Position numbers and translations under genes: made by a program. The notes under the pieces are model-generated. The model did not search any database and was not told the DNA's origin. It saw only the letters and a program-made list of their open reading frames with translations. From Ancylomarina sp. DW003 (lineage in GTDB: Bacteria > Bacteroidota > Bacteroidia > Bacteroidales > Marinifilaceae): a stretch of DNA of 64,000 nt. Location of the stretch: NCBI RefSeq assembly GCF_029029505.1, contig NZ_JAKJSD010000017.1, positions 1 through 64,000 of the forward strand, written 5' to 3'. This document shows, piece after piece, positions 26,211-57,614 of the stretch (position 1 is the stretch's first letter; each line of letters begins with the position of its first letter).

Positions 26211-28073
26211 ATGAGAACTCTACTATCCTTTTTACTTGTTTTAATTTCTGTTTTATCCTTTGCGGAGAGCATGACTTTTGTCGATGAAGAAAAAGTTGAT
26301 AGTCTTGAAAATAAGTTAATGATAGTTGATGGTGATGATAAACTTGAACTCTTATTAAAACTTTGTAAAGAACTTGTAGAGAAGAATTCTGATAAATGTA
26401 TCGCTTATGCTGAAGAAGCTTTAGAGTTATCACAAAAGTTAAACCGTCCCAAAGCTCAGGTTAAGGCATTAATTTTTCTGGGTAGAGAGGATTCTAACTT
26501 TGGGAACTATTTTGAAGGCTTGCAGCATTTTAAAGAGGCTGCAGATATTGCTGATTGCGAGAAGGATGACAAAGGTTTGGTTGATTCCTGGAATGAAATT
26601 GGCATAACCTATTTCAATATGAGCAGCTACGAAGAGGCCCAGTCCTTCTATTTTAAAGCTCTCAAAAAAGCAGAAGAAATAGACTATAAGGAACGGATGA
26701 TCGGAATGAAGAACAATATCGCCATTATCTACTCCATTTATAAAGATCATGAAAAGGCTCTGGAGTTATTTTACTCGCTGTTGGAAATCTACGAAAATGA
26801 AAAGGATTTGTTTCATTTTGCACTAACCTCTGTAAATATTGCTAATATTTATGATGAGATTGGTGAGTACGAGAAAGGTTTTCAGTATTTAAATAGCGCT
26901 GTTCCCATTTTTACAGAATCCGGGAACAACCTAATGCTTACTTCTACCTTGAATAATCGTGGCGTTATTTTCCTTAAGTTGAATAAAAAGAAGGAAGCTC
27001 TTGCTGATTATCATCAGGCACTTGAAATCTCAGAAAAAAACAATTACGATAATGGAATTGTATCCTCTTCGGTTAATTTGGGAGAGTTTTATCTTAATGA
27101 AAAGGAATTTGAAAAAGCGTTGAACTTTTTTAAAAAAGCACTAAAGATTTCTTTGGAGAATTTAGATAAAGCAAGTATTAAAGATTCATATGCTGGAATG
27201 GCAAAAGTGTATACTCTGCAGAGGAATTATCATGAAGCTTTGAAGATGACCAAGCTGTTTATGACCCATAAGGATGAAATCTTCAATGAACAGACTCAAA
27301 AGCAAATTAGTGAACTTCAGATAAAATATGAAACGGAAAAGAAAGAAGAAGAAATAGAGTTACTTCAAATAAGAATGAGGACTCAAAGAAGAAATCAAAT
27401 TATACTTGTAGTTGGTTTGATTGTTATCTCACTTCTAATTCTGAGGGTTTTATATTTAAAGCAACTTAATTTTAAGAGAAAGAATTTATTGCTTGAACAA
27501 GTTAGTTTAATGGATAAGCTTGCTCTTGAAAAAATGAATTCTGAAAAAAGGGAGAAAGATTTAGAGAATTTGAGGCTGCATGAAGAAATGCTGGCAAATG
27601 AGGAGATTAATCGTCTTGAGCAATTGAAATTCCAAGAAGATTTGAAGCACAAGGAGCGTGAGCTAGCTGCTAATGCCTTACATGTAGTAAGTAAAAATGA
27701 AACTCTTGAAAGTTTAAAGAGATCTGTGGAAACCGTTCTAGTTTCTGATAAAGAAGATATACAGAGTTCTCTAAAAAGACTCATTCAGGAGATTGAGGGG
27801 AATATTAATCTCGATCAGGACTGGGAGATATTTAAGATGCACTTTGAGGAAGTACATCAGGATTTCTTTAAGAGATTGGTTGAGAGATATACTGACTTAA
27901 ACACAAATGATTTGAGATTCTGTGCCTACTTAAGGTTGAATTTAGATGCTAAGGAAATAGCAAGAATCTTAAATATTTCTGTAAATGCGATTGAAAAACG
28001 TCGTTATAGATTAAGGAAAAAATTAGATTTAGATTCCTCTGACAACCTCTTCGAATTCCTGAGTAATTTCTAA
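26211..28073 (+). CDS. Membrane-bound TPR regulator with C-terminal HTH
   Basis: A 620-aa sensor-regulator. Signal peptide at 1-18, about six TPR repeats (about 30-370, such as YEEAQSFYFKALKKAEEI and FEKALNFFKKALKISLEN), one membrane span at about 395-415, a long coiled coil (about 415-500), then a LuxR/GerE-like HTH at the end (LNLDAKEIARILNISVNAIEKRRYRLRKKL). TPRs would face the periplasm and the HTH the cytoplasm. It lies just upstream of the ECF sigma gene and may control the uptake locus (inference from position). Confidence 0.85.
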   Translation: MRTLLSFLLVLISVLSFAESMTFVDEEKVDSLENKLMIVDGDDKLELLLKLCKELVEKNSDKCIAYAEEALELSQKLNRPKAQVKALIFLGREDSNFGNYFEGLQHFKEAADIADCEKDDKGLVDSWNEIGITYFNMSSYEEAQSFYFKALKKAEEIDYKERMIGMKNNIAIIYSIYKDHEKALELFYSLLEIYENEKDLFHFALTSVNIANIYDEIGEYEKGFQYLNSAVPIFTESGNNLMLTSTLNNRGVIFLKLNKKKEALADYHQALEISEKNNYDNGIVSSSVNLGEFYLNEKEFEKALNFFKKALKISLENLDKASIKDSYAGMAKVYTLQRNYHEALKMTKLFMTHKDEIFNEQTQKQISELQIKYETEKKEEEIELLQIRMRTQRRNQIILVVGLIVISLLILRVLYLKQLNFKRKNLLLEQVSLMDKLALEKMNSEKREKDLENLRLHEEMLANEEINRLEQLKFQEDLKHKERELAANALHVVSKNETLESLKRSVETVLVSDKEDIQSSLKRLIQEIEGNINLDQDWEIFKMHFEEVHQDFFKRLVERYTDLNTNDLRFCAYLRLNLDAKEIARILNISVNAIEKRRYRLRKKLDLDSSDNLFEFLSNF

Positions 28074-28181: not shown

Positions 28182-28232
28182 CTGCGACCCCTTTTGTCTA
28201 TGTCGCGAAAAGGGCTGTGACCCCTTTTGTCT
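28182..28232 (+). repeat. Two 18-bp direct repeats upstream of the ECF sigma gene
   Basis: CTGCGACCCCTTTTGTCT (28182-28199) and CTGTGACCCCTTTTGTCT (28215-28232) match at 17 of 18 positions and lie 33 bp apart. AAAAGGG (28208-28214) between them can pair with either copy, giving two exclusive hairpins. This is a likely regulatory site for the ECF sigma gene whose GTG start is at 28348. Confidence 0.6.
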
Positions 28233-28347: not shown

Positions 28348-28869
28348 GTGAAGAGGAAAGAATTTAAACCATTTTTTGAAAGCTTCTATTCCAGTTTGTG
28401 CCTGTTTGCTAAAAAGTATGTTCAGGATAGTGATGTTGCAGCAGACATGGCTCAGGAGGCTTTTATTAAATTATGGAACGGTAAGGAGGCATTTGATAGC
28501 GAAAATGCCATGAAAGGATACTTGTATATGGTGACCCGAAACTCATGTTTAAACTATATTAAGCACCATAAAGTCGTATCTGATTACGCTGCCCAAAATT
28601 TGGAGAAAGAGTTATTCTTTAGAGATAATATCTTAGAGGAAGAAACCTATTATGAAGTTCATAAAGCCATTGAAGTCTTGCCGTCGCAAGGGAAACGTGT
28701 GGTTCAGATGAGTATGAAAGGTATTAAAAATCCTGAGATTGCCCTTCGTTTAAATATTTCCATCAATACGGTAAAATCTGTAAAATCTAATGCTTATCGT
28801 TTGCTTCGTTTGCATTTGCAGGATGTTGTATCAATAATGATAGTTTTCATATTTAAGATCTTGTTGTAA
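28348..28869 (+). CDS. ECF-type RNA polymerase sigma factor
   Basis: A 173-aa FecI-like sigma factor. Region 2 is FFESFYSSLCLFAKKYVQD...ADMAQEAFIKLWNG; region 4 is MKGIKNPEIALRLNISINTVKSVKSNAYRLLRLHL with the -35-binding HTH. The start is GTG: an in-frame stop lies 12 bases upstream and no ATG is available nearby. It is followed by its own terminator and then by its likely anti-sigma factor FecR, and it probably directs transcription of the SusC-SusD locus. Confidence 0.92.
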   Translation: MKRKEFKPFFESFYSSLCLFAKKYVQDSDVAADMAQEAFIKLWNGKEAFDSENAMKGYLYMVTRNSCLNYIKHHKVVSDYAAQNLEKELFFRDNILEEETYYEVHKAIEVLPSQGKRVVQMSMKGIKNPEIALRLNISINTVKSVKSNAYRLLRLHLQDVVSIMIVFIFKILL

Positions 28870-28877
28870 TTATAAAG

Positions 28878-28913
28878 TGATGTCAGAACTTATTTAGGTT
28901 CTGACATTTTTTT
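28878..28913 (+). terminator. Intrinsic terminator between ECF sigma and fecR genes
   Basis: ATGTCAGAAC (28880-28889) pairs perfectly with GTTCTGACAT (28898-28907), followed by seven T. It separates the sigma gene from the fecR-susC transcript. Confidence 0.9.
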
Positions 28914-28933
28914 CAAAAAAAATGAACCCCTCC

Positions 28934-28966
28934 CACCCCCTTTTATTTTTGAGTTGTTTTAGTAGT
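28934..28966 (+). promoter_or_regulatory. Candidate ECF sigma promoter of fecR (copy A)
   Basis: CACCC (28934-28938), 9 bases, TTTGAGTTGTT (28948-28958), then TTAGTAGT. The same composite at the same spacing recurs at 38599-38631 (25 of 33 bases identical). With CACCC as -35 and GTTGTT as -10 the spacing fits ECF promoters. It lies just after the sigma gene terminator and 106 bases before fecR. Confidence 0.55.
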
Positions 28967-29072
28967 ATAATCCCTTGAAGGATATAGTCCGGATCAGAAT
29001 ATTATTGTATAAAAAAACCATGCTCAAGCAAGTTTGTTTTATAGGGCAAAGGAGGATAAATAAAAATTTCTA

Positions 29073-30257
29073 GTGAATAGAATTGACCAACATATAAAAA
29101 TATCTCAACTAATTGCCAAAGAAGTAAATTTTGGTTTGGATGAGAAGGAGAAACAGGAGCTGTACTCTTGGATTGACGGAAGAGAAGAGAACAAGCAGGT
29201 TTATGATCGAATTCGTAATAAAGAGGGCTTTCTTGATTGGGATGAAAATTTTCATCAGGTGGATGTAGAGGAAGGGTGGAAGCGATTTGATGAAGCTGTA
29301 AATCCTAATAAAATTGTTATCGCATTTCAGACCATTCTCCGTTACGCAGCAGTCATATTAGTCCCTCTGTTTTTATCGGGTGTGGGTTATTATTTATACA
29401 ACGATTTAATGAATCAGTCTCATCAACAAGAGCAGCTTGCAAAATTGGAATTACCAAAACCTAAAGCTCAGTTGATTCTGGCAAATGGACAGAGGGTAAG
29501 CTTGGATAATAAGAAGACTTCTGCATTAAAAGAAAAGGATGGAACCCGAATTGAGAAAGGCGATGGTAATTTAAAGTATCAGGCAGGGAATGAAAAGGGG
29601 AAGCTATTGTATAATACTGTAGAAATTCCCAGAGGAAGCGAGTATGAGTTGGTTCTTGCTGATGGGACAAAGGTTCATCTGAATGCCATGAGTTCATTGA
29701 AATTCCCTGTTCAGTTTACTGGAAAAACGAGGGAAGTTGAGTTGAGTGGAGAAGCCTATTTTGATGTGGCTAAAGATGCAAAACATCCTTTTGTTGTAAA
29801 TGTTCTAGGTACAAAAGTAGAAGTGCTGGGAACCTCTTTTAATGTGAAAGCTTACGAAGAGAATGAGGAAGTTGTGACGACTTTGGTTGAAGGGCGCGTG
29901 AAGGTTCAATCCTCAGGTTTTAAAGCTGAGTCGATGTTCTTGGAACCTGGTCAGCAGGCTATAGTCGATGAAAAAACAGGAGATATGGATATGTGTGAAG
30001 TGGATGTGGCTTTATTTACCTCATGGAGAGAAGGTGTTTTCTTATTCAAGGATCAGCGAATGGAGGATATTATGATTGAATTGGCAAGGTGGTACAATTT
30101 AAAAGTGTTTTACAAGAATCCATTGGCAAAGGAATATCGTTTTGGAGGACATTTTAATCGCAGCAGCGAGATTGATTCTATAATGGAGATGTTTGAGTTG
30201 ACCCGTAAAGTGAAAGTGAAAGTGAATGGTGAAACCATTGTAATAGATGAAAAATAA
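29073..30257 (+). CDS. FecR-family anti-sigma factor
   Basis: A 394-aa inner-membrane protein that holds the ECF sigma factor until a signal passes from the SusC-type transducer. N-terminal cytoplasmic sigma-binding part (1-82), membrane span at about 87-108 (FQTILRYAAVILVPLFLSG region), periplasmic FecR domain (about 180-280, RGSEYELVLADGTKVHLNAM) and DUF4974-like C-terminus. The start is GTG. It is transcribed from its own candidate ECF promoter and followed by susC after 89 bases. Confidence 0.93.
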   Translation: MNRIDQHIKISQLIAKEVNFGLDEKEKQELYSWIDGREENKQVYDRIRNKEGFLDWDENFHQVDVEEGWKRFDEAVNPNKIVIAFQTILRYAAVILVPLFLSGVGYYLYNDLMNQSHQQEQLAKLELPKPKAQLILANGQRVSLDNKKTSALKEKDGTRIEKGDGNLKYQAGNEKGKLLYNTVEIPRGSEYELVLADGTKVHLNAMSSLKFPVQFTGKTREVELSGEAYFDVAKDAKHPFVVNVLGTKVEVLGTSFNVKAYEENEEVVTTLVEGRVKVQSSGFKAESMFLEPGQQAIVDEKTGDMDMCEVDVALFTSWREGVFLFKDQRMEDIMIELARWYNLKVFYKNPLAKEYRFGGHFNRSSEIDSIMEMFELTRKVKVKVNGETIVIDEK

Positions 30258-30258
30258 A

Positions 30259-30312
30259 ACAGGAAATGCTGTAACATTTCCTGTCTCTGAAAATTTCTGC
30301 TGTAACAGAAAT
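30259..30312 (+). promoter_or_regulatory. Twin hairpins with identical loops between fecR and susC
   Basis: Hairpin 1: ACAGGAAATG (30259-30268) with CATTTCCTGT (30275-30284). Hairpin 2: ATTTCTG (30293-30299) with CAGAAAT (30306-30312). Both have the hexaloop CTGTAA inside the shared decamer TGCTGTAACA, 31 nt apart. Neither has a T tract, so they look like RNA processing or protein-binding elements instead of terminators. Confidence 0.6.
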
Positions 30313-30346
30313 AAAATTTAAGTGTAACCTAAATCTTAACAAAGTT

Positions 30347-33300
30347 ATGAAAAAATGTTTGAATAATGGCTTTCGACATCGGAAGCTGTTTAAACGATTA
30401 CTAGTTATGAAAATGCTTGCCATTTTCCTGCTTGCGAGTGTATTAAGCGTTTCGGCGAATACATTGGCTCAGGACGCAAAAGTGACATTGAACATGGAGG
30501 GAGCGGAGTTGGAACAGGTGTTGTGGGAAATCCATGAACAAACTGGTCTGGTTTTTCTCTACAGTTCTTCTGATGTAAAGGATGTAAATGCACTTAGTGT
30601 AGATGCTAAGGAAGAAACCGTAAAATCGGTTTTGAATCGTTGTTTAGAAGATAGTGGCTTGGAATATGAGTTTAAGAGTAAGGCTGTAACCTTACGAAAG
30701 ACCTCAACTCCGGCTAAATCTCCTGTTAAGACACAACAGCAACAAACCAAGAAGGTTTCTGGTGTTGTTTTGGATGATCTGGGAATTTCATTGCCTGGTG
30801 TTTCCGTTTTGGAAAAGGGAACCACTAATGGGGTTTCTACCGATTTTGATGGAAAGTTTACAATAGAGATTCCTGCTAACGGGAAAGTCGTTTTGGTTTT
30901 TTCTTTTATAGGAATGGAATCTCAAGAAGTTCTTGTAAAGGGGCAAAAGGAGTTGAAAATTACACTATTGTCTGATGCTGAACAATTAGCTGAAGTTGTT
31001 GTCGTATCTGACGGATTCCGTAAAACCGATCGCCGTTTGTTTACCGGTTCGGCTACCACAGTGAAGGCTGCAGATGCAAAAGTGGCAGGTATAACTGATG
31101 TGGGGCAAATGTTGGAAGGAAAAGCTGCCGGAGTTTCTGTTCAAACTGTATCCGGAACTTTTGGTGCAGCACCTAAGATTCGTGTACGTGGTGCTTCGTC
31201 TATTTATGGTGATCAAAAACCTTTGTGGGTAGTTGATGGTGTTGTATTGGAGGATGTTGTGGATGTTTCTCCTGATGATTTGTCATCTGGTGATGCTTCT
31301 ACTTTAATCAGTTCTGCAGTTGCTGGTTTGAACTCCGATGATATTGAAAACTTTCAGATTTTGAAAGATGCTTCGGCAACCGCTCTTTATGGTGCACGAG
31401 CTATGAATGGTGTGATTGTAATTACGACCAAACGTGGAAAAAAAGGTTCAACTTCTGTTTCATATTCGGGTGAATATACCATGAGAATGAAACCTTCCTA
31501 TTCTAATTATAACATTATGAATTCACGTGAACAGATGTCTGTTTATCGTGAATTGGAAGCTAAGGGATGGTTGAATCATGCTGAAATCTCCCGTCAGAAA
31601 AATGGCGGTATTTATAAAAAGATGTATGATTTGATAAATACTTATGATCCTACAACGGGTTTTGGTTTGCAAAATACCCCTGAAGCAAAGGCTAAATTTT
31701 TGCAGAAATACGAAATGACGAATACCGATTGGTTTGATGAATTGTTTACAAATAATATTACTCAAAACCATTCGGTTAGTTTAACAGGCGGAAATGAGAA
31801 GAGTAACTTCTATTTCTCGACAAGTTATTATGGAGATAAAGGATGGTCTATTGCTGATAAGGTAGATCGTTACACTGTGAATGCAAATGCATCTGTAAAA
31901 TTGAATGATAAACTGAAAGTTGGTTTTATAACAGCAGGTTCGTTTCGACAGCAAAAGGCTCCGGGGACGGTGAGTCGTACAGAAGATCCTATTAATGGTC
32001 AGTATAGCCGTGATTTTGATATCAATCCATTCTCTTATGCTTTGAATACCAGTAGAGTGTTGCGTCCTTATGATGATAATGGGAATTTGGAATTCTACCG
32101 AATGAATTATGCCGATTTCAACATTATAAACGAGATGAAGAATAACTATTTGGATATTGATATGTTGGATTTGAAACTTCAGGCAAATATCGATTATGAA
32201 CTTTCAAAGGGATTGGATCTGAATTTTGTGGGTTCGATAAGGTATGTGAAATCTACTCAGGAGCATAAAATTTTGGAGAATTCCAATATGGCATCTGCAT
32301 ATAGATCTGCTGATACTTACGAAATTGCAAAGAATAATAAGTTCCTATTTAAAGATAATGAGGTTCCAAACTCATTGCCTCAGGTTGTTTTGCCTAAGGG
32401 AGGTTTTTATAACAGAAGTGATAACAGCTTATTGAATTATTATTTTAGAGGAACTGCAAACTGGAATAAAATATTCGATGAAACTCATATCGTGAATGTT
32501 ATGGGCGGTATGGAGGTTAAATCTTCCAATCGACAAAATAGTACTTTTGATGGTGTTGGCTATCAGTGGGAAAGAGGGGGAGTGCCTTATATCGATCCAA
32601 ATTTTGTGAGACATCAATTACAGAATGGGATTTCTTATTATGGTATGCAAGAATATCGTGACCGCTTCGCCGCCTTTTTTGCAACAGGAAGTTATTCTTA
32701 TGCCGGAAAATACACGATTAATGGAACTTTCCGTTACGATGGTTCAAATCAATTGGGACAATCATCTTCTGCTCGCTGGTTACCTACTTGGAACGTGAGT
32801 GGATCCTGGAATGCACATGATGAAGACTTCTTAAGAGATTCTGAAGTTATTTCTCATTTGTCATTTAGAGCGACTTATGGTTTGACTGCAAGTATGGGTG
32901 CTGCTACCAATTCAACCTTGGTACTGAAGAACGATGTGACTGACCGTCCTTATCTTTCTGAGCAGGAGTCAAGAATGTATATTGATGGCTTGGAGAATTC
33001 GGAGTTAACATGGGAAAAGCAGTATGAAACCAATGTGGGAATGGATTTAGGTTTATTCCGCAACAGAATCAACTTGAGTGTAGATGCTTATCAGCGTAAA
33101 GGATTCGATTTGATTGCTTATATCAAAACTTCCGGTATTGGAGGTGAATTCTGGAAATTTGCCAACTATGCCGATATGGAATCGAAGGGTATTGAATTTA
33201 CCTTAACCACACACAATGTGAAGGCTGATGATTTTAAATGGAATACCAACTTAACTTTTGCTTACAATAAGAATGAGATTACGAAGTTGAAATCTTTCCA

Positions 33301-34009
33301 GAATATTTACAATCTGGTTAAAGATGTTGGAGGTCCATTGGAAGGCTATAATGTGAGAAGTTTATTCTCGATAAAATACAAAGGATTGAATGATGAAGGT
33401 CTGCCTACATTCATTAACGAGAATGGGGAAACGACCGTTTCTGATCTGGATTTTCAGTCAAATGACATTGAGCACCTGAAGTATGAAGGTTCTATTGATC
33501 CAAAGGTTACGGGTGGTTTCGGTAATAACTTCACTTATAAAAACTGGAAGCTAAATGTGTTCATGACTTACCAGTTTGGAAATAAGGTGAGATTACGTCC
33601 TCAGTTTAAAGCACAATATTCTGACCTGGATGCCATGCCTAAGGAGTTTTACGATCGTTGGATGCTTGAGGGAGATGAGGACATTACTGATATACCTGTA
33701 ATTTTATCTCAACGACAGTACAATGTGAACTATACCAAGGCTTATAATGCATATAACTTATCTACAGCACGTGTAGCTGATGGTTCATTTGTAAGAATGA
33801 AAGAAATCTCGTTGGCATACAAGTTACCAAAGAAATTCTTAACAGGAATTGGCTTTAACAGCGCTACTTTGAAACTTCAGGGATCAAACCTGTTCCTGAT
33901 ACATTCAGATAAAAAATTGAATGGACAAGATCCTGAGTTTATGGGTTCTGGTGGTGTGGCCATGCCTGTTCCTAAGCAATATACCTTCTCGGTAAAGCTT
34001 GGTTTTTAA
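30347..34009 (+). CDS. SusC/RagA outer-membrane transporter with STN signalling domain
   Basis: TonB-dependent outer-membrane importer and signal transducer, 1220 aa. Signal peptide with a long basic N-region, cleaved near SANTLAQ (residues 36-42). STN domain about 45-105 (the FecR-contacting domain), carboxypeptidase-regulatory-like beta domain about 125-205 (VSGVVLDDLGISLPGVSV), TonB plug about 220-340 (LKDASATALYGARAMNGVIVITT), 22-strand barrel to the terminal Phe (FSVKLGF). The STN domain links it to the FecR/ECF switch. It is paired with susD downstream. Confidence 0.96.
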   Translation: MKKCLNNGFRHRKLFKRLLVMKMLAIFLLASVLSVSANTLAQDAKVTLNMEGAELEQVLWEIHEQTGLVFLYSSSDVKDVNALSVDAKEETVKSVLNRCLEDSGLEYEFKSKAVTLRKTSTPAKSPVKTQQQQTKKVSGVVLDDLGISLPGVSVLEKGTTNGVSTDFDGKFTIEIPANGKVVLVFSFIGMESQEVLVKGQKELKITLLSDAEQLAEVVVVSDGFRKTDRRLFTGSATTVKAADAKVAGITDVGQMLEGKAAGVSVQTVSGTFGAAPKIRVRGASSIYGDQKPLWVVDGVVLEDVVDVSPDDLSSGDASTLISSAVAGLNSDDIENFQILKDASATALYGARAMNGVIVITTKRGKKGSTSVSYSGEYTMRMKPSYSNYNIMNSREQMSVYRELEAKGWLNHAEISRQKNGGIYKKMYDLINTYDPTTGFGLQNTPEAKAKFLQKYEMTNTDWFDELFTNNITQNHSVSLTGGNEKSNFYFSTSYYGDKGWSIADKVDRYTVNANASVKLNDKLKVGFITAGSFRQQKAPGTVSRTEDPINGQYSRDFDINPFSYALNTSRVLRPYDDNGNLEFYRMNYADFNIINEMKNNYLDIDMLDLKLQANIDYELSKGLDLNFVGSIRYVKSTQEHKILENSNMASAYRSADTYEIAKNNKFLFKDNEVPNSLPQVVLPKGGFYNRSDNSLLNYYFRGTANWNKIFDETHIVNVMGGMEVKSSNRQNSTFDGVGYQWERGGVPYIDPNFVRHQLQNGISYYGMQEYRDRFAAFFATGSYSYAGKYTINGTFRYDGSNQLGQSSSARWLPTWNVSGSWNAHDEDFLRDSEVISHLSFRATYGLTASMGAATNSTLVLKNDVTDRPYLSEQESRMYIDGLENSELTWEKQYETNVGMDLGLFRNRINLSVDAYQRKGFDLIAYIKTSGIGGEFWKFANYADMESKGIEFTLTTHNVKADDFKWNTNLTFAYNKNEITKLKSFQNIYNLVKDVGGPLEGYNVRSLFSIKYKGLNDEGLPTFINENGETTVSDLDFQSNDIEHLKYEGSIDPKVTGGFGNNFTYKNWKLNVFMTYQFGNKVRLRPQFKAQYSDLDAMPKEFYDRWMLEGDEDITDIPVILSQRQYNVNYTKAYNAYNLSTARVADGSFVRMKEISLAYKLPKKFLTGIGFNSATLKLQGSNLFLIHSDKKLNGQDPEFMGSGGVAMPVPKQYTFSVKLGF

Positions 34010-34073
34010 ATAGTGTAGAAGATTAATTTGTTGTGTGATTGAAATCAATCGTATATCAATAAAAATTAAGACA

Positions 34074-35585
34074 ATGAAGAAAATTAAAAATATAGCCTTA
34101 GTCTTTTTGGGGATGACCATGTTATCTTCATGTAATGACTATTTAGATGAAACACCTGATAACAGGACTGTTTTGGATTCACCTGAAGCGGTGAGTGAAT
34201 TATTGGTGTCTGCTTATCCTGAAGCTTTTTATCATGGGTTTACAGAAGTGATGTCTGATAATGCAGGAGATAAGGGTGTTGGTCAATATGTTGCAGAATA
34301 TATCCCCAATGGAGATGCCTATTATTGGGAGGATGCTGCTTCCGATTCGTATGATACCCCTACATTTTATTGGAATGCTTGTTATGCAGCTATTGCTGCA
34401 GCCAATCATGCTTTGGATGCGATTGAAAAGGTTTCGGATAAAGAAAATTATACAGCTCAAAAGGGAGAGGCTTTGGCAGCACGTGCCTATGGGCATTTCA
34501 TGTTGGTGAATTTGTTCAGTAAGCACTACAATCCAGCTACTGCTGAGAGTGATTTGGGAGTGCCTTTTGTTGAAGCACCAGAGAAAGTTGTATTCAAAGA
34601 TTACAAAAGAGCTTCTGTAAAAACAATCTATGATAGAATTGAGACTGATATTGAGGAAGCTGCTAAGTTGATTCGAGATGATAGTTACATGGTAGGTAAA
34701 TATCACTTTACACAGTCTGCTCTTCATGCTTTTGCATCGCGATTTTATTTGTTTAAAGGCGATTGGGATAAAGTAATTGAACATTCTGATGTTGTTCTGG
34801 GTAGTGATCCGTCAAGTAAATTGAGAGACTGGAATGGGAAATATCTTACGTATGAAGCTATGGAGCTTTGGGCGCAGTATACAAGAGCCGAAGAAGCTTC
34901 CAATATTATGTTGGCAAGAGGTTATACCAATTGGGGGAATGGTGCTGTTGTATTCCGATATTCTTTATCTGCTCCTAAGATTGGTGAGTTGTTTGGTAAA
35001 GATCCTATAACCGACGAAATGCGTTTCGAAATGACGATTGGCGACAAAGTTTTGTATGCTGCGGGTTCTCAACTGTTAGGATTTATCCCCAAATTAAAGG
35101 GTAGAATAGAAAGTCACGACAACAATCCTGACCAGGGTTATTCCAATATGGTTGCTCCACTTTTTACAACTGAAGAAGTTCTGTTTAACAGAGCTGAAGC
35201 CTATGCGATGAAAAAAGATTATGCATCTGTATTGGAGGATTTGGATAGTTATTTGCAGAAAAGAGAGAGAGCATACAATCCGGAAAATAAAGTTACTCTT
35301 GAGGAAATACAGAAGGAATACGAAATGACTGATGGTCCTTTATTGGCGCCATACTACATGGTTGAAGAAGGACAGAAATACTACTTGTGGTATCTATTGG
35401 ATTTGCGTCGTCGTGAATTTGTACATGAAGGAATGAGATGGTTTGATGTGAAGCGATTCAATTTTGAAATTACTCATAATGTGTTTGAGGGAAGTCCTAT
35501 TAGTTTGCCAAAAGACGATAATCGCAGAGTGATTCAAATTCCTGAACAAGCAGTTGCAATTGGATTACAGGCTAACCCACGATAA
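34074..35585 (+). CDS. SusD/RagB-family surface lipoprotein
   Basis: Substrate-capturing lid of the SusC transporter on the cell surface. It is 503 aa from the ATG at 34074; the frame extends upstream but this start gives the lipoprotein signal MKKIKNIALVFLGMTMLSSC. SusD features include NDYLDETPDNR, the helical TPR-like scaffold (AARAYGHFMLVNLFSKHYNP) and the C-terminal DLRRREFVHEGMRWFDVKRF. It lies 64 bases after susC. Confidence 0.95.
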   Translation: MKKIKNIALVFLGMTMLSSCNDYLDETPDNRTVLDSPEAVSELLVSAYPEAFYHGFTEVMSDNAGDKGVGQYVAEYIPNGDAYYWEDAASDSYDTPTFYWNACYAAIAAANHALDAIEKVSDKENYTAQKGEALAARAYGHFMLVNLFSKHYNPATAESDLGVPFVEAPEKVVFKDYKRASVKTIYDRIETDIEEAAKLIRDDSYMVGKYHFTQSALHAFASRFYLFKGDWDKVIEHSDVVLGSDPSSKLRDWNGKYLTYEAMELWAQYTRAEEASNIMLARGYTNWGNGAVVFRYSLSAPKIGELFGKDPITDEMRFEMTIGDKVLYAAGSQLLGFIPKLKGRIESHDNNPDQGYSNMVAPLFTTEEVLFNRAEAYAMKKDYASVLEDLDSYLQKRERAYNPENKVTLEEIQKEYEMTDGPLLAPYYMVEEGQKYYLWYLLDLRRREFVHEGMRWFDVKRFNFEITHNVFEGSPISLPKDDNRRVIQIPEQAVAIGLQANPR

Positions 35586-35690
35586 TTATAAAAATAAAGA
35601 TATGAAACGAGCATGAGAACAAGGCTTCGCACACAGTGAAATGATGATTCATGCGACTTCCATATGGTCAAAATTTAAAATAATAATCAT

Positions 35691-36599
35691 ATGAAAAAGA
35701 TAATATTTTTATTCTTTTCAATGTCTATCCTTTTTGCCTCGTGTGATAAGGAAGAAGACTTAGGAAAGTCATTAATCGATACTTCTACACCAGAGTTAAA
35801 TGATGTTGATGAGTGGATCAGAGAGAATTATACCTACCCCTACAATGTCGAAGTGAAATACAAATGGGATAATTCGGAGTTGGATAATACAAAAATTCTA
35901 ACACCTACGACCTTGGAAAGGGTGATTCCTTTCCTTGATAAAATGAAGGGAATTTGGGTTGATCCTTATGCGAGTAATGGAGGTTCAGATTTTATGAAGG
36001 CCTTTATTCCCAAACAAATTGTACTGGTTGGGAGTCACAATTACAATGATAATGGTTCAATTGTGTTGGGGCAGGCCGAAGGAGGAAGAAAGATCACCAT
36101 TTTCGACCTGAATTACATCAATTTCGATTTGTCAGGAATGAACGATTGGGAGAGACGTAAGGCAATGGAGCCTATTCTTCGCGTATTTAAAACCATGCAC
36201 CACGAGTTTGGTCATATATTGCACCAGACCATTGCTTATCCTGTAGAATACAAGAAGTTGACGATAGGTTACACATCCAATTGGATGAACTTTTCAGACA
36301 GTGACGCCAGAAAAATGGGATTCATTACAGCTTATTCTTTGTTGAATCCGGATGAAGATTTTGTGGAGATGTTATCCGAATTTCTTACCCGTAGTAATGA
36401 AGAATGGAATGAGATAATCGATAAGATCGAAATATATGATGACAGCTGGAATACAGATGAAGCAGCATCAGAAAAAGCCAGAGGCCAAATTCGTCAGAAA
36501 GAGAAGATGATTGCTGATTACATGCTTCAGATTTGGAAGATCGATATCTATAAACTGCAGGCGGATATTGCTGAGGTATTGGATGAACTAGGTAATTAA
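35691..36599 (+). CDS. Zinc metallopeptidase lipoprotein of SusCD loci (Mx1-type)
   Basis: A 302-aa lipoprotein (MSILFASC, Cys19) with the zinc motif HHEFGHILHQ (HExxH near residue 171) and a later EDFVEMLSEFL segment likely giving the third ligand. This fits the family of substrate import-associated zinc metallohydrolase lipoproteins found beside SusC/SusD genes. It suggests that the locus handles a peptide or protein substrate. It is cotranscribed with susCD and the next gene. Confidence 0.85.
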   Translation: MKKIIFLFFSMSILFASCDKEEDLGKSLIDTSTPELNDVDEWIRENYTYPYNVEVKYKWDNSELDNTKILTPTTLERVIPFLDKMKGIWVDPYASNGGSDFMKAFIPKQIVLVGSHNYNDNGSIVLGQAEGGRKITIFDLNYINFDLSGMNDWERRKAMEPILRVFKTMHHEFGHILHQTIAYPVEYKKLTIGYTSNWMNFSDSDARKMGFITAYSLLNPDEDFVEMLSEFLTRSNEEWNEIIDKIEIYDDSWNTDEAASEKARGQIRQKEKMIADYMLQIWKIDIYKLQADIAEVLDELGN

Positions 36600-36620
36600 T
36601 TCATAGAAAACAAGAGTGTT

Positions 36621-37946
36621 ATGAAAAAAAAATATTTAAATATAATATGTTCCATGCTTGTTTTGTTTACGGCATGTGACAACGATTTTGAAAGTGAGTT
36701 TGATCTTGCACCAGACGAAAGAGCTGGTATAGCTGTTAAGGAATTCAAGGATGCTTTAAACTCATCGGAGCATGGGTGGTTGACGCATTATTACCCTAAT
36801 CCAACTGAGTTAGGATCATTTAGCTACCTTCTAAAATTTGATGCAACAGGCGTTGTAAGTATGAATTGGGATTATTATGATTTTCCTGATGAGTCGGAAT
36901 ATTCTGTAAAGATGTTTGAAAAGCCAGTATTGATTTTCGATACCTACAGTAAATTCTCAAAGATGACTGATCCTGAAATTGGTATACCAGGTCAGGGATT
37001 TGGTGGTGAACTAGAGTTTAGCATGACAAAAAAATCAGCAGATGGGGATACCTTGTATCTTGCAGAGAGAGTGAGTGGCGATCCTATGGTGCTGGTTAAA
37101 GCGACAGCTGAAACTCCTGTTCAGCTTAGAGAATACGTTAAACACACGAAGCATATCGAGAGATCGAATGAACAAGTCGTTGTCCCTTTTTATTTCAACT
37201 TATCTGTTGAAGGTTGGGATGCGAAAGTAAATATGGTATATAGTGGTGATAAGCTTATTGCATTTCTTAACTATGAAGATGGTGGAGTATCAAAACATGA
37301 GTTGATGCCAATTAACTTTACCCACGAAGGTTTTGAATTTCATCATGCCTTAGTATTGAATGGTATTGGAGTTAGATCTTTTAAATATGATGAAGCTAAG
37401 AATCAGTTCGATGTAATGGATGCTGGTGTTACAGGTGCTTTTAAATATGAAATGGATTATACTGCTGAAATTGATGGGCTGACTGATAAGCTTTTTGGTC
37501 CTAGAACATTTGGTGGAAGTGCAGAGATAATCAGTCCGAAATTATTTAATTTAATTGATGGTATCTATCCTGATTCTGGACTTAATTTTTTATCTACAGA
37601 TACTTATGTGGCTTCCTGGTTTCCTCGTACTTTCAATTTATATTTTGAAAATTGGAGTTCTCTCGATATTAAGGTTAACTATAATAAGAAAACTGAGGAT
37701 GTTGTTGTGATGGAATTTCTTGGTTATGATACAGGTTGGTCAGCACCATTTGATGATTTGGCTTATATAGAGGGATTAATGGCTACTGAAAAAGGTCAGG
37801 CTATAAAAGCTATTGTAACAAGTGATAAGGGATGGACTATTGTTCCTATAGAGCTTAAGGAGTATGGTTCTTCTTATTACTTAGTAAGCAATGAGGATCC
37901 TGAGATGTATATGTGCTTTGGATTAACATATGAAGATGATGTATAA
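36621..37946 (+). CDS. DUF4302 lipoprotein
   Basis: A 441-aa lipoprotein (MLVLFTAC, Cys19) of the DUF4302 type, recognised by SSEHGWLTHYYPN near residue 50 and by beta-rich repeats. These proteins accompany SusCD/Mx1 loci and probably sit on the surface binding substrate; their function is unknown. It lies 21 bases after the metallopeptidase gene and is the last gene before a terminator-like hairpin. Confidence 0.82.
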   Translation: MKKKYLNIICSMLVLFTACDNDFESEFDLAPDERAGIAVKEFKDALNSSEHGWLTHYYPNPTELGSFSYLLKFDATGVVSMNWDYYDFPDESEYSVKMFEKPVLIFDTYSKFSKMTDPEIGIPGQGFGGELEFSMTKKSADGDTLYLAERVSGDPMVLVKATAETPVQLREYVKHTKHIERSNEQVVVPFYFNLSVEGWDAKVNMVYSGDKLIAFLNYEDGGVSKHELMPINFTHEGFEFHHALVLNGIGVRSFKYDEAKNQFDVMDAGVTGAFKYEMDYTAEIDGLTDKLFGPRTFGGSAEIISPKLFNLIDGIYPDSGLNFLSTDTYVASWFPRTFNLYFENWSSLDIKVNYNKKTEDVVVMEFLGYDTGWSAPFDDLAYIEGLMATEKGQAIKAIVTSDKGWTIVPIELKEYGSSYYLVSNEDPEMYMCFGLTYEDDV

Positions 37947-37994
37947 AACACTGGTTAATTAAAATTGTTAAATCTGAATGATTAGTTAGTGTCT

Positions 37995-38046
37995 GAAAGC
38001 CCTCCTACCTGCGTATTCTCAAGTACAAATGGCAAGGGGGCTTTTC
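37995..38046 (+). terminator. Probable terminator of the uptake operon
   Basis: AAAGCCCTCC (37996-38005) pairs with GGGGGCTTT-type sequence (38036-38044, one G-T wobble) followed by T. The loop is long (about 30 nt), so confidence is moderate. Confidence 0.55.
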
Positions 38047-38081
38047 CCTTGAAACATTAAGAATTTTAAAAAAAAGAAAAA

Positions 38082-38315
38082 ATGTTCGATACGAGTTTTG
38101 GATTAAAAACATGGATCTACCCAGGTTTAATTTGGGGAGTGATCATGTTCCTTATCATCAGTTTTCTCTTGCCTTTAATGGAAGGTGAGTTAATAGTCTG
38201 GGAAAAATTGTATGGCCTCCCTATCTGGTTAATTGGCGGCTTGGTGATGAAATATTCTCAATTTAAACATATTTATAAAAACGGGAGAAGAGGAATTGGA
38301 GAAAAAACGGATTAA
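38082..38315 (+). CDS. Small two-span membrane protein
   Basis: A 77-aa protein with hydrophobic spans at about 10-32 and 45-58, and a basic C-terminus. Not recognised. It lies 2 bases before the next small membrane protein, so the two form a pair of unknown purpose behind the uptake locus. Confidence 0.65.
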   Translation: MFDTSFGLKTWIYPGLIWGVIMFLIISFLLPLMEGELIVWEKLYGLPIWLIGGLVMKYSQFKHIYKNGRRGIGEKTD

Positions 38316-38317
38316 TC

Positions 38318-38521
38318 ATGAAAATATATTGCAGAGTAAACTTTAAGGATAAGGCCGAGCGAAAAGCATTTATCTATACCTTATTAATTTCAATAATAGT
38401 AAGCCAGATTTTAGCTTTTATAATTTGGTACTTCTTTGGTTACAATAAATTCTTTTTATTACTCATTTCTTCATTTGCAGGCATTTTATTTGGATACAAA
38501 GGAGTAAAGAAAAAAGCCTAA
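38318..38521 (+). CDS. Small two-span membrane protein
   Basis: A 67-aa protein with spans at about 19-41 and 45-61 and a short basic N-terminus (KDKAERKAF). Not recognised. Paired with the gene before it, likely translationally coupled (2-base gap). Confidence 0.62.
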   Translation: MKIYCRVNFKDKAERKAFIYTLLISIIVSQILAFIIWYFFGYNKFFLLLISSFAGILFGYKGVKKKA

Positions 38522-38598
38522 GTGGAAGATCATAGAAATCTTATGTAATATTAGATCTATAGTTTTTAGAGTAGATTGAAAAAAATCGGGCTAACACT

Positions 38599-38631
38599 CA
38601 CCCATTTTTGAATTTGAGTTGTTATACTATT
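38599..38631 (+). promoter_or_regulatory. Candidate ECF sigma promoter of the orphan RNA (copy B)
   Basis: CACCC (38599-38603), 9 bases, TTTGAGTTGTT (38613-38623), then ATACTATT. It matches copy A before fecR at 25 of 33 positions with identical spacing. It lies just upstream of the hairpin RNA at 38655, as a promoter should. Confidence 0.55.
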
Positions 38632-38639
38632 AAAGTTTT

Positions 38640-38776
38640 AGTTAGTCGGTGAATAGAGCAGAACCCCCTACAGACTTTGTTTGGTACTTCGTTGTACAAA
38701 ATTGCATTAAATCACCTTTGGTCGGATCTGATTGATGAATATTTAAAACAAAGTTTTGGGTTTTGCTCTTTTTTTA
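38640..38776 (+). ncRNA. Candidate structured small RNA with terminator
   Basis: No gene in this 523-base gap. An outer helix (AGAGCAGAACCC, 38655-38666, with 38758-38769, one G-T wobble) is followed by six or more T. Inside it ACTTTGTTT (38674-38682) pairs with AAACAAAGT (38746-38754). Within that, two small hairpins (GTAC/GTAC, AATCA/TGATT) make a branched fold. It resembles a terminated RNA of about 135 nt. It matches no RNA family I know. The rest of the gap to 39044 holds only a weak dyad (TGTTTA 38834-38839 with TAAACA 38851-38856). Confidence 0.6.
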
Positions 38777-39044
38777 TGCCCGATATTTTAAAACTCTTAT
38801 TTTGAATGATGATATTTTAAATCATGATATGCTTGTTTATGGCCTCCATGTAAACATTATATAGCTTGAATTTCAACTTATTTGGATTGATTCTAGCTTA
38901 ATCTAAATAAGCAATATCAATAAAAAAAAGCTTTATCTCTTTAAGTGCCATCAGAATAATTTTCTATTTTTAGTAGGAGTCATGCAACATTTAAGAGTGA
39001 TTATACCTATTTCTTACCCTGTTTAAAATGATGGAGGATTATTT

Positions 39045-57491: not shown

Positions 57492-57614
57492 GTATCAGCA
57501 TGTAATATATCTTAACTTCGGCGATGAAGTTGGCTGGCATATATGAAATGTGAGGATGGAGTAGCCAATTTTTAATTATCCGACCAAAGTTCTACTTGAA
57601 GATTTAATTATTTT

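Follow-up and report, generated by a model that had tools for sequence, protein, structure and literature searches.

Genes and Features of the SusCD Locus

The stretch of DNA analysed here (the window) comprises 64,000 nucleotides of Ancylomarina sp. DW003, positions 1 to 64,000 of the forward strand of contig NZ_JAKJSD010000017.1. Positions 28348-37946 of the window hold one co-directional SusCD-type locus, which encodes, as judged by Pfam matches, an ECF sigma factor, FecR, SusC, SusD, an Mx1 metallopeptidase, and a DUF4302 protein (Table 1). The succession of sigma gene, fecR, susC, and susD is that of an ECF sigma/FecR-regulated SusCD locus, and the gene order is equal in the genomes of Ancylomarina salipaludis (G001) and G002. 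A SusCD locus equipped with an ECF sigma factor and FecR of its own is usually regarded as a self-contained switch. The available text of PMC12596196 describes PULs in the same terms.

Two further features lie upstream of the sigma gene. An 18-nt direct repeat, CTGYGACCCCTTTTGTCT, is present at 28182-28232 with its copies 33 nt apart and is a possible operator. The TPR protein encoded at 26211-28073 has a C-terminal match resembling sigma region 4 and adjoins the sigma gene also in G001, G002, and G004 (Ancylomarina euxinus); it is a possible second regulator.

The motif CACCC-N9-TTTGAGTTGTT occurred with zero mismatches at 28934-28958 (copy A) and at 38599-38623 (copy B), and 25 of 33 bases were equal between the two 33-base stretches. 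The exact search and the base count bore out the sequence-only reading, which had reported the two sites with the same spacing. When up to three mismatches were allowed, the window contained five matches against 0.59 expected (100 shuffles, maximum 3), the three further ones carrying 2, 3, and 3 mismatches. Copy A sits between the sigma gene with its terminator-like hairpin (5') and fecR (3'), in agreement with the placement first read from the sequence and with the gene coordinates. Ten nucleotides separate the end of copy B from the conserved head of a predicted small RNA, whose earlier boundaries of 38632-38776 were, judging from the sequence, correct to within a few bases.

Table 1. Coordinates of the genes, predicted promoters, and RNA elements in the window.
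Feature	Position	Strand	Basis or remark
ECF sigma factor gene	28348..28869	+	GTG start as listed; Pfam Sigma70_r2, Sigma70_r4_2
Terminator-like hairpin and T run, 3' of sigma gene	about 28881..28913	+	Read from sequence
Copy A, ECF-type promoter of fecR (predicted)	28934..28961	+	CACCC-N15-TTGTTTTA; same site 3' of four sigma orthologs
fecR (anti-sigma)	29073..30257	+	Pfam FecR, FecR_C
susC	30347..34009	+	Pfam STN, CarbopepD_reg_2, Plug
susD	34062..35585	+	Pfam SusD-like_3, SusD_RagB
Mx1 zinc metallopeptidase	35691..36599	+	Pfam Peptidase_Mx1 2.1e-78
DUF4302 protein	36621..37946	+	Pfam DUF4302
Copy B, ECF-type promoter of small RNA (predicted)	38599..38626	+	CACCC-N15-TTGTTATA; rank 12/1,045,266, matrix from fecR promoters alone
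Small RNA, one of 20-copy family	38637..38775 (start near 38632-38637)	+	Homology searches, structure
Unpaired conserved 5' head TTTAGTTAGTCGGT	38637..38650	+	16-row alignment
Closing stem, 5' arm	38656..38667	+	Structure
Core TTTGGTCGGATC	38717..38728	+	Identical in 15/16 alignment rows
Closing stem, 3' arm, and T run (terminator)	38758..38775	+	Sequence, structure
ATCCGACCAAAG in M23 peptidase leader	57578..57589	+	Antisense to RNA core; candidate target

A Multicopy Family of Structured RNAs

Twenty genomes were searched at the DNA level with positions 38590-38800 of the window. Matches were found at six places in the window's own genome (G000), in four genomes of the same genus, and in Marinifilum sp. 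D714 (G008). A covariance model was then built from 16 copies and applied at E up to 0.01 to 56 genomes of the family, which yielded 20 copies in 7 genomes: six in the own genome, four in G001, three in G002, one in a Marinifilaceae MAG (G003), four in G004, one in G008, and one in G042 (G000, G001, G002, G003, and G004 being of one genus). In an order-wide draw of 393 genomes, the model matched the own genome alone, with eight candidates scored per genome, so that weak relatives may be missed. The RNA had been described as an orphan tied to the SusCD locus; it is multicopy instead. Moreover, the orthologous loci of G001 and G002 have no adjoining copy, nor is there one on the contigs that carry these loci, indicating that the RNA need not be linked to the locus.

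All copies have in common an unpaired head, an inner helix, and a closing stem with a T run at its end, together with a pair of hairpins, one of which carries the core TTTGGTCGGATC. In the alignment, 93.0% of the cells in paired positions could pair, against 85.5% after shuffling. Two-sided changes affected 49 cells (16.1 in shuffled alignments) and 15 of the 32 pairs (7.7 in shuffled alignments); none of 500 shuffles gave covariation counts as high, and 3 of 500 did so for pair types. These values are favoured by a structure derived from the same alignment and inflated by related rows; the effect size is still large. Sliding the structure by 1-3 columns left 36-51% of the cells paired. Comparison among the copies establishes the family and its fold. 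No RNA in Rfam matched at the gathering score, and three matches at E up to 5 were far below the cut-offs. The longest stop-free stretch per copy ranged from 18 to 44 codons.

Genomic Settings of the RNA Copies

Each of the genomes G000-G004 contributes one copy to a set of five that is flanked by DsbD on one side and by an M16 peptidase gene on the other; as read from the sequence, these copies appear to stand behind a sigma-A-like box. The consensus TAnnTTTG is quoted in the available text of PMC7366714. A second type comprises six copies (four in the own genome, one each in G008 and G042), at least four of which lie directly 3' of a DUF4369-like lipoprotein gene (family F10); the two such genes that were scanned scored 25.7 and 23.1 bits against a DUF4369 cut-off of 25. 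A predicted ECF-type promoter was present at 9 of the 20 copies (seven clear sites and two degenerate ones, ranking 446 and 189 in the matrix scan described below) and absent from 11. The next gene downstream encodes an ECF sigma factor at 7/20 copies and an M16 peptidase at 5/20. At L016 5471-6137, an apparently broken thioredoxin-like frame separates the RNA copy from the ECF sigma gene.

Match between the fecR Sites and the Predicted RNA Promoters

We searched the five same-genus genomes for CACCC-N15-TTGTTTTA. Seven exact matches were obtained, four before RNA copies, two before fecR (window and G004), and one intragenic. Another 48 sites had one mismatch; the minority of these that were placed included the sites of three further RNA copies (one of them that of the window) and four fecR upstream regions (G001, G002, and the own contigs C56 and C45). 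With one mismatch allowed, the total of 55 matches compared with 39 for reversed controls, so the bare pattern is hardly enriched and says little by itself. Similarly, CACCC-N16-TGTT gave 24 matches in the own genome against 20 for reversed controls. One-mismatch matches at G001:C52 and G002:2511656 were read as gene-end hairpins, and one at G004:C15 as coding. At G001:C11:41950 (L135 5951-5978), a motif site precedes short unclear frames and belongs to neither fecR nor an RNA copy.

Matrices provided the stronger test. A matrix made from the four orthologous fecR promoters was scored against 1,045,266 positions in the window and 28 fetched stretches. The predicted promoters of seven RNA copies ranked 5, 6, 7, 8, 11, 12, and 13, where ranks 1-4 were the training sites and ranks 9 and 10 were sites in stretches fetched for their pattern match. 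All seven sites lie 8-11 nt before the RNA head. Conversely, a matrix made from the seven RNA promoters, the window's own RNA site included in the training set, placed the window's fecR first among 23 own fecR upstream regions, with a score of 37.4, followed by 30.2 (C56) and 11.3. When the two elements alone were scored, the window's fecR reached 23.1, C45 18.9, and C56 18.7. Mean pairwise identity was 0.94 for CACCC and 0.93 for TTGTTTTA, against 0.67 for the spacer and 0.50 for the flank, and the element spacing in the common site can be written CACCC-N17-GTTTTA.

A CACCC box was found near 10 of the 23 own fecR openings (L072-L094) compared with 22 of 325 genes (p 5e-6), and the -10 elements differed among the own fecR genes with a nearby box. 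A common -35 element combined with locus-specific -10 elements may operate across the own fecR genes. At L023 and L026, the fecR promoters next to the RNA copies also contain CACCC, with GTCTGT as the -10 element, unlike the predicted RNA promoters there. The available text of PMC9723704 gives a CGT -10 box in a Flavobacterium ECF motif.

Co-occurrence with the Sigma Gene and Tree of the RNA Bodies

The best matches to the window's sigma factor were at 84% in G001, 83% in G002, 81% in G004, and 70% in G008, whereas those in G003 and G042 reached 40%. The fecR site is kept 3' of the window's sigma gene and of all four orthologs found (G001, G002, G004, and G008). Clear RNA sites were present before 7 of the 20 copies: 1/6 in the own genome, 3/4 in G001, 1/3 in G002, 2/4 in G004, and none of the single copies in G003, G008, and G042. 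Among the seven RNA-bearing genomes, such copies were confined to those with the sigma factor or an 81-84% ortholog. Within the sample of five same-genus genomes to which this comparison is limited, the four with the sigma gene have promoter-bearing copies and G003, which lacks it, has none. The contrary case is Marinifilum G008, which has the 70% ortholog and the fecR site, but whose single RNA copy carries no such promoter.

In a tree of the 20 RNA bodies, the window's copy and that of G004:C75 formed a pair (support 97/96) nested within the second-type clade (98/95), and the remaining seven promoter-bearing copies, two of them degenerate, grouped apart (87/97). Well-supported branches force at least two changes of the promoter label, implying that inheritance alone does not explain the promoter match. 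The RNA promoter would either have been gained twice, or have been lost and regained, or have been moved by recombination.

The promoter match and the co-occurrence both emerge from comparison among genomes, and such comparison lends good support to the view that the sites before fecR and before the RNA are targets of one ECF sigma factor. The original proposal, that one sigma factor drives both the fecR-susC transcript and the small RNA, is sustained to the extent that the promoter match and the ortholog co-occurrence speak for it.

Candidate Targets of the RNA

The RNA had also been suggested to act back on the mRNAs of its own locus; this part was not upheld, as predicted pairing did not exceed shuffles. 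None of the mRNAs for sigma, fecR, susC, susD, Mx1, and DUF4302, nor those for SCO1 and UbiA, stood out from shuffles, which preserved composition only. For the best pairings in the locus, 17.5% of shuffles were as good with the 5' head (Mx1), 19% with the core (fecR), and 16.7% with the whole RNA (fecR).

Start regions of other genes were also compared. The SusC type was represented by 30 loci out of 83 CarbopepD_reg_2 matches, and these showed no clear group difference from 114 other start regions (mean z -0.42 versus -0.19 for the 5' head and 0.05 versus -0.10 for the core). Eight-letter words of the 5' head matched 9 of 332 rows, two of which are one gene in overlapping stretches (23/300 permuted seeds as high). 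Among the 9 SusC regions picked out by a crude flag they matched 3 (0/300 as high); the flag missed two of the three susC genes of contig C1. In that C1 susC array, 12-13 pairs can form with the 5' head just before the start codon. The three susC genes there (G000:C1:182-194 kb; L226, L186, L193, and L194) have the leader ACTAACTAAAAATT(C/T)-ATG. The arrangement ACTAACTAAA-N1-12-ATGAAA was found in 28 of the 56 family genomes, that is, in all 7 with the RNA (2 to 5 each) and in 21 without it (for example, G010 with 6 and G050 with 7). Some susC leaders may be trans targets, which is a weak lead, and the leader word ACTAACTAAA is present also in genomes lacking the RNA.

Seven-letter words of the core matched 8 of 332 start regions, no excess over controls (198/300 as high). 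The strongest single site was in the leader of an M23 peptidase gene, where the core can form 12 pairs (E -20.0; 0.5% of shuffles as good); as the best among 144 start regions tried with two seeds, it is not significant by itself. The sequence ATCCGACC is kept in the window's M23 gene and the three same-genus orthologs found, four species in all, and is absent from five other family leaders examined, these being unrelated in sequence. G003 has no full-length ortholog of the peptidase. The M23 leader is likewise a weak lead as a putative trans target.

Alternative Explanations

The likeness of the two kinds of site could reflect overlapping specificities, if a different ECF sigma factor, or one of broader range (of a PM2-like, stationary-phase or stress type), read the RNA promoter. 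Because the fecR upstream regions of C45 and C56, both within one mismatch of the RNA promoter, come close to the window's fecR by the two elements alone, another ECF sigma factor might read the RNA promoter. Bacteroides thetaiotaomicron also has a non-canonical promoter, with TGTT at about -10, which according to the available text of PMC12596196 may be read by ECF sigma factors and according to that of PMC7366714 drives GibS. However, when the best 20 of 24 (G001), 16 of 19 (G002), and 19 of 23 (G004) sigma matches were compared by eye, no other one-mismatch site lay within 2 kb of a sigma gene in the position of fecR, and the GTCTGT elements of the fecR promoters beside the L023 and L026 copies differ from the RNA promoters. 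We regard a different sigma factor as possible, though somewhat improbable. That the resemblance is mere chance or a repeat artefact, with AT-rich sites alike and the hairpin an ordinary terminator, would fit the scant enrichment of the bare patterns over reversed controls; it is contradicted by the ranks under an independent matrix, the covariation, the window shuffles, and the tree, and we consider it highly improbable.

A further alternative concerns the function of the RNA rather than its promoter; it is compatible with the promoter assignment, and its likelihood overlaps with that of a different sigma factor. The RNA could be a cis-acting leader or attenuator, in which the closing stem is a regulated terminator and the sigma factor acts on the next gene by read-through. 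Consistent with this, of the 19 copies followed in the fetched stretch by a frame of at least 70 aa, 18 have the orientation of that gene; many precede an ECF sigma or M16 peptidase gene as given above, and the conserved single-stranded segments offer possible binding sites for a ligand or protein. On the other hand, the genes downstream are of several kinds, the distance to them varies from 78 to 793 nt, and the G008 copy faces a convergent gene. Furthermore, a box of their own follows the RNA at four of the seven downstream sigma genes (TAnnTTTG at 3, TAnnTTTA at 1, none at 3). We hold a cis-acting role to be unlikely.

Comparison with Known Systems

A close parallel is FopS of B. thetaiotaomicron, described in the available text of PMC11697453 as paralogous multicopy sRNAs that target SusC. 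On that description, both FopS and the Ancylomarina RNA would be multicopy paralogous sRNAs of Bacteroidota that are tied to SusC loci, have a conserved 5' end free of pairing, and finish in a terminator. FopS appears to consist of a single-stranded 5' stretch and a terminator hairpin, whereas the Ancylomarina RNA is predicted to have four helices under a long closing stem. The FopS promoter is given as canonical sigma-A type and that of the Ancylomarina RNA is of putative ECF type on part of the copies; FopS is reported from Bacteroidaceae, while the Ancylomarina RNA was found in Marinifilaceae only, in the genomes searched. No FopS or GibS family was among the Rfam matches at E<=5; Rfam coverage of FopS is uncertain, and FopS was compared by description. 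As to a FopS-like repression of susC by pairing at the start region, the 5' head is predicted to pair with some susC leaders; taken together, SusC start regions are not distinct, and the leader word is present also in genomes lacking the RNA.

GibS (PMC7366714) is similar as an sRNA behind a non-canonical promoter, for which TGTT at about -10 is reported in the available text of PMC12596196. GibS is described as a single gene with two seeds, whereas the Ancylomarina RNA is multicopy and without an Rfam match; GibS promoter motif 2 was compared by description. Rfp18 of Flavobacterium psychrophilum (PMC9723704), also compared by description, is another structured conserved sRNA of Bacteroidota. 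It is reported to affect metalloprotease mRNAs, and a link to SusCD or ECF sigma factors was not found in the available text of that paper.

The enterobacterial Sigma-E, which responds to general envelope stress, uses the sRNAs MicA and RybB as its trans arm, and the Ancylomarina system may resemble it as an ECF sigma factor with an sRNA trans arm. It would differ in belonging to another phylum and to a FecR/SusCD switch.

Proposed Model and Its Implications

We propose that the sigma factor of this locus reads copy A, copy B, and equal sites, and that part of the RNA family is under its control; we consider this joint model probable, with moderate confidence. Sensing of the substrate, probably a peptide or protein, would make FecR release the sigma factor. 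The released factor would initiate the fecR-susCD transcript from copy A, and the small RNA from copy B and from equal sites in other parts of the related genomes. The structured RNA of about 140 nt would end at its own terminator. The paralogous RNA family would have been brought in part under the locus sigma factor, either in two or more steps or through an exchange of promoters. The RNA would act in trans, most likely through pairing of its 5' head or core loop with mRNAs of other loci and not of its own. Transcription, sigma dependence, the substrate, and the trans action are steps that we infer.

In the literature covered, which left subscription journals mostly outside its scope, no sRNA under a FecR/SusCD sigma factor was found, and neither were papers on an Ancylomarina small RNA or on a predicted CACCC promoter for Bacteroidetes ECF/FecR/SusC systems. 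A bolder version, which we put forward tentatively and judge rather unlikely, is that one peptide-sensing ECF switch commands dispersed structured sRNAs, several of which sit immediately 5' of sigma genes belonging to other SusCD loci. The use of one nutrient would thereby arbitrate that of others in trans, the sRNAs having been recruited to that sigma factor more than once. If true, an sRNA family under one FecR/SusCD sigma factor would add to such a switch a trans arm and a means of ranking nutrients.
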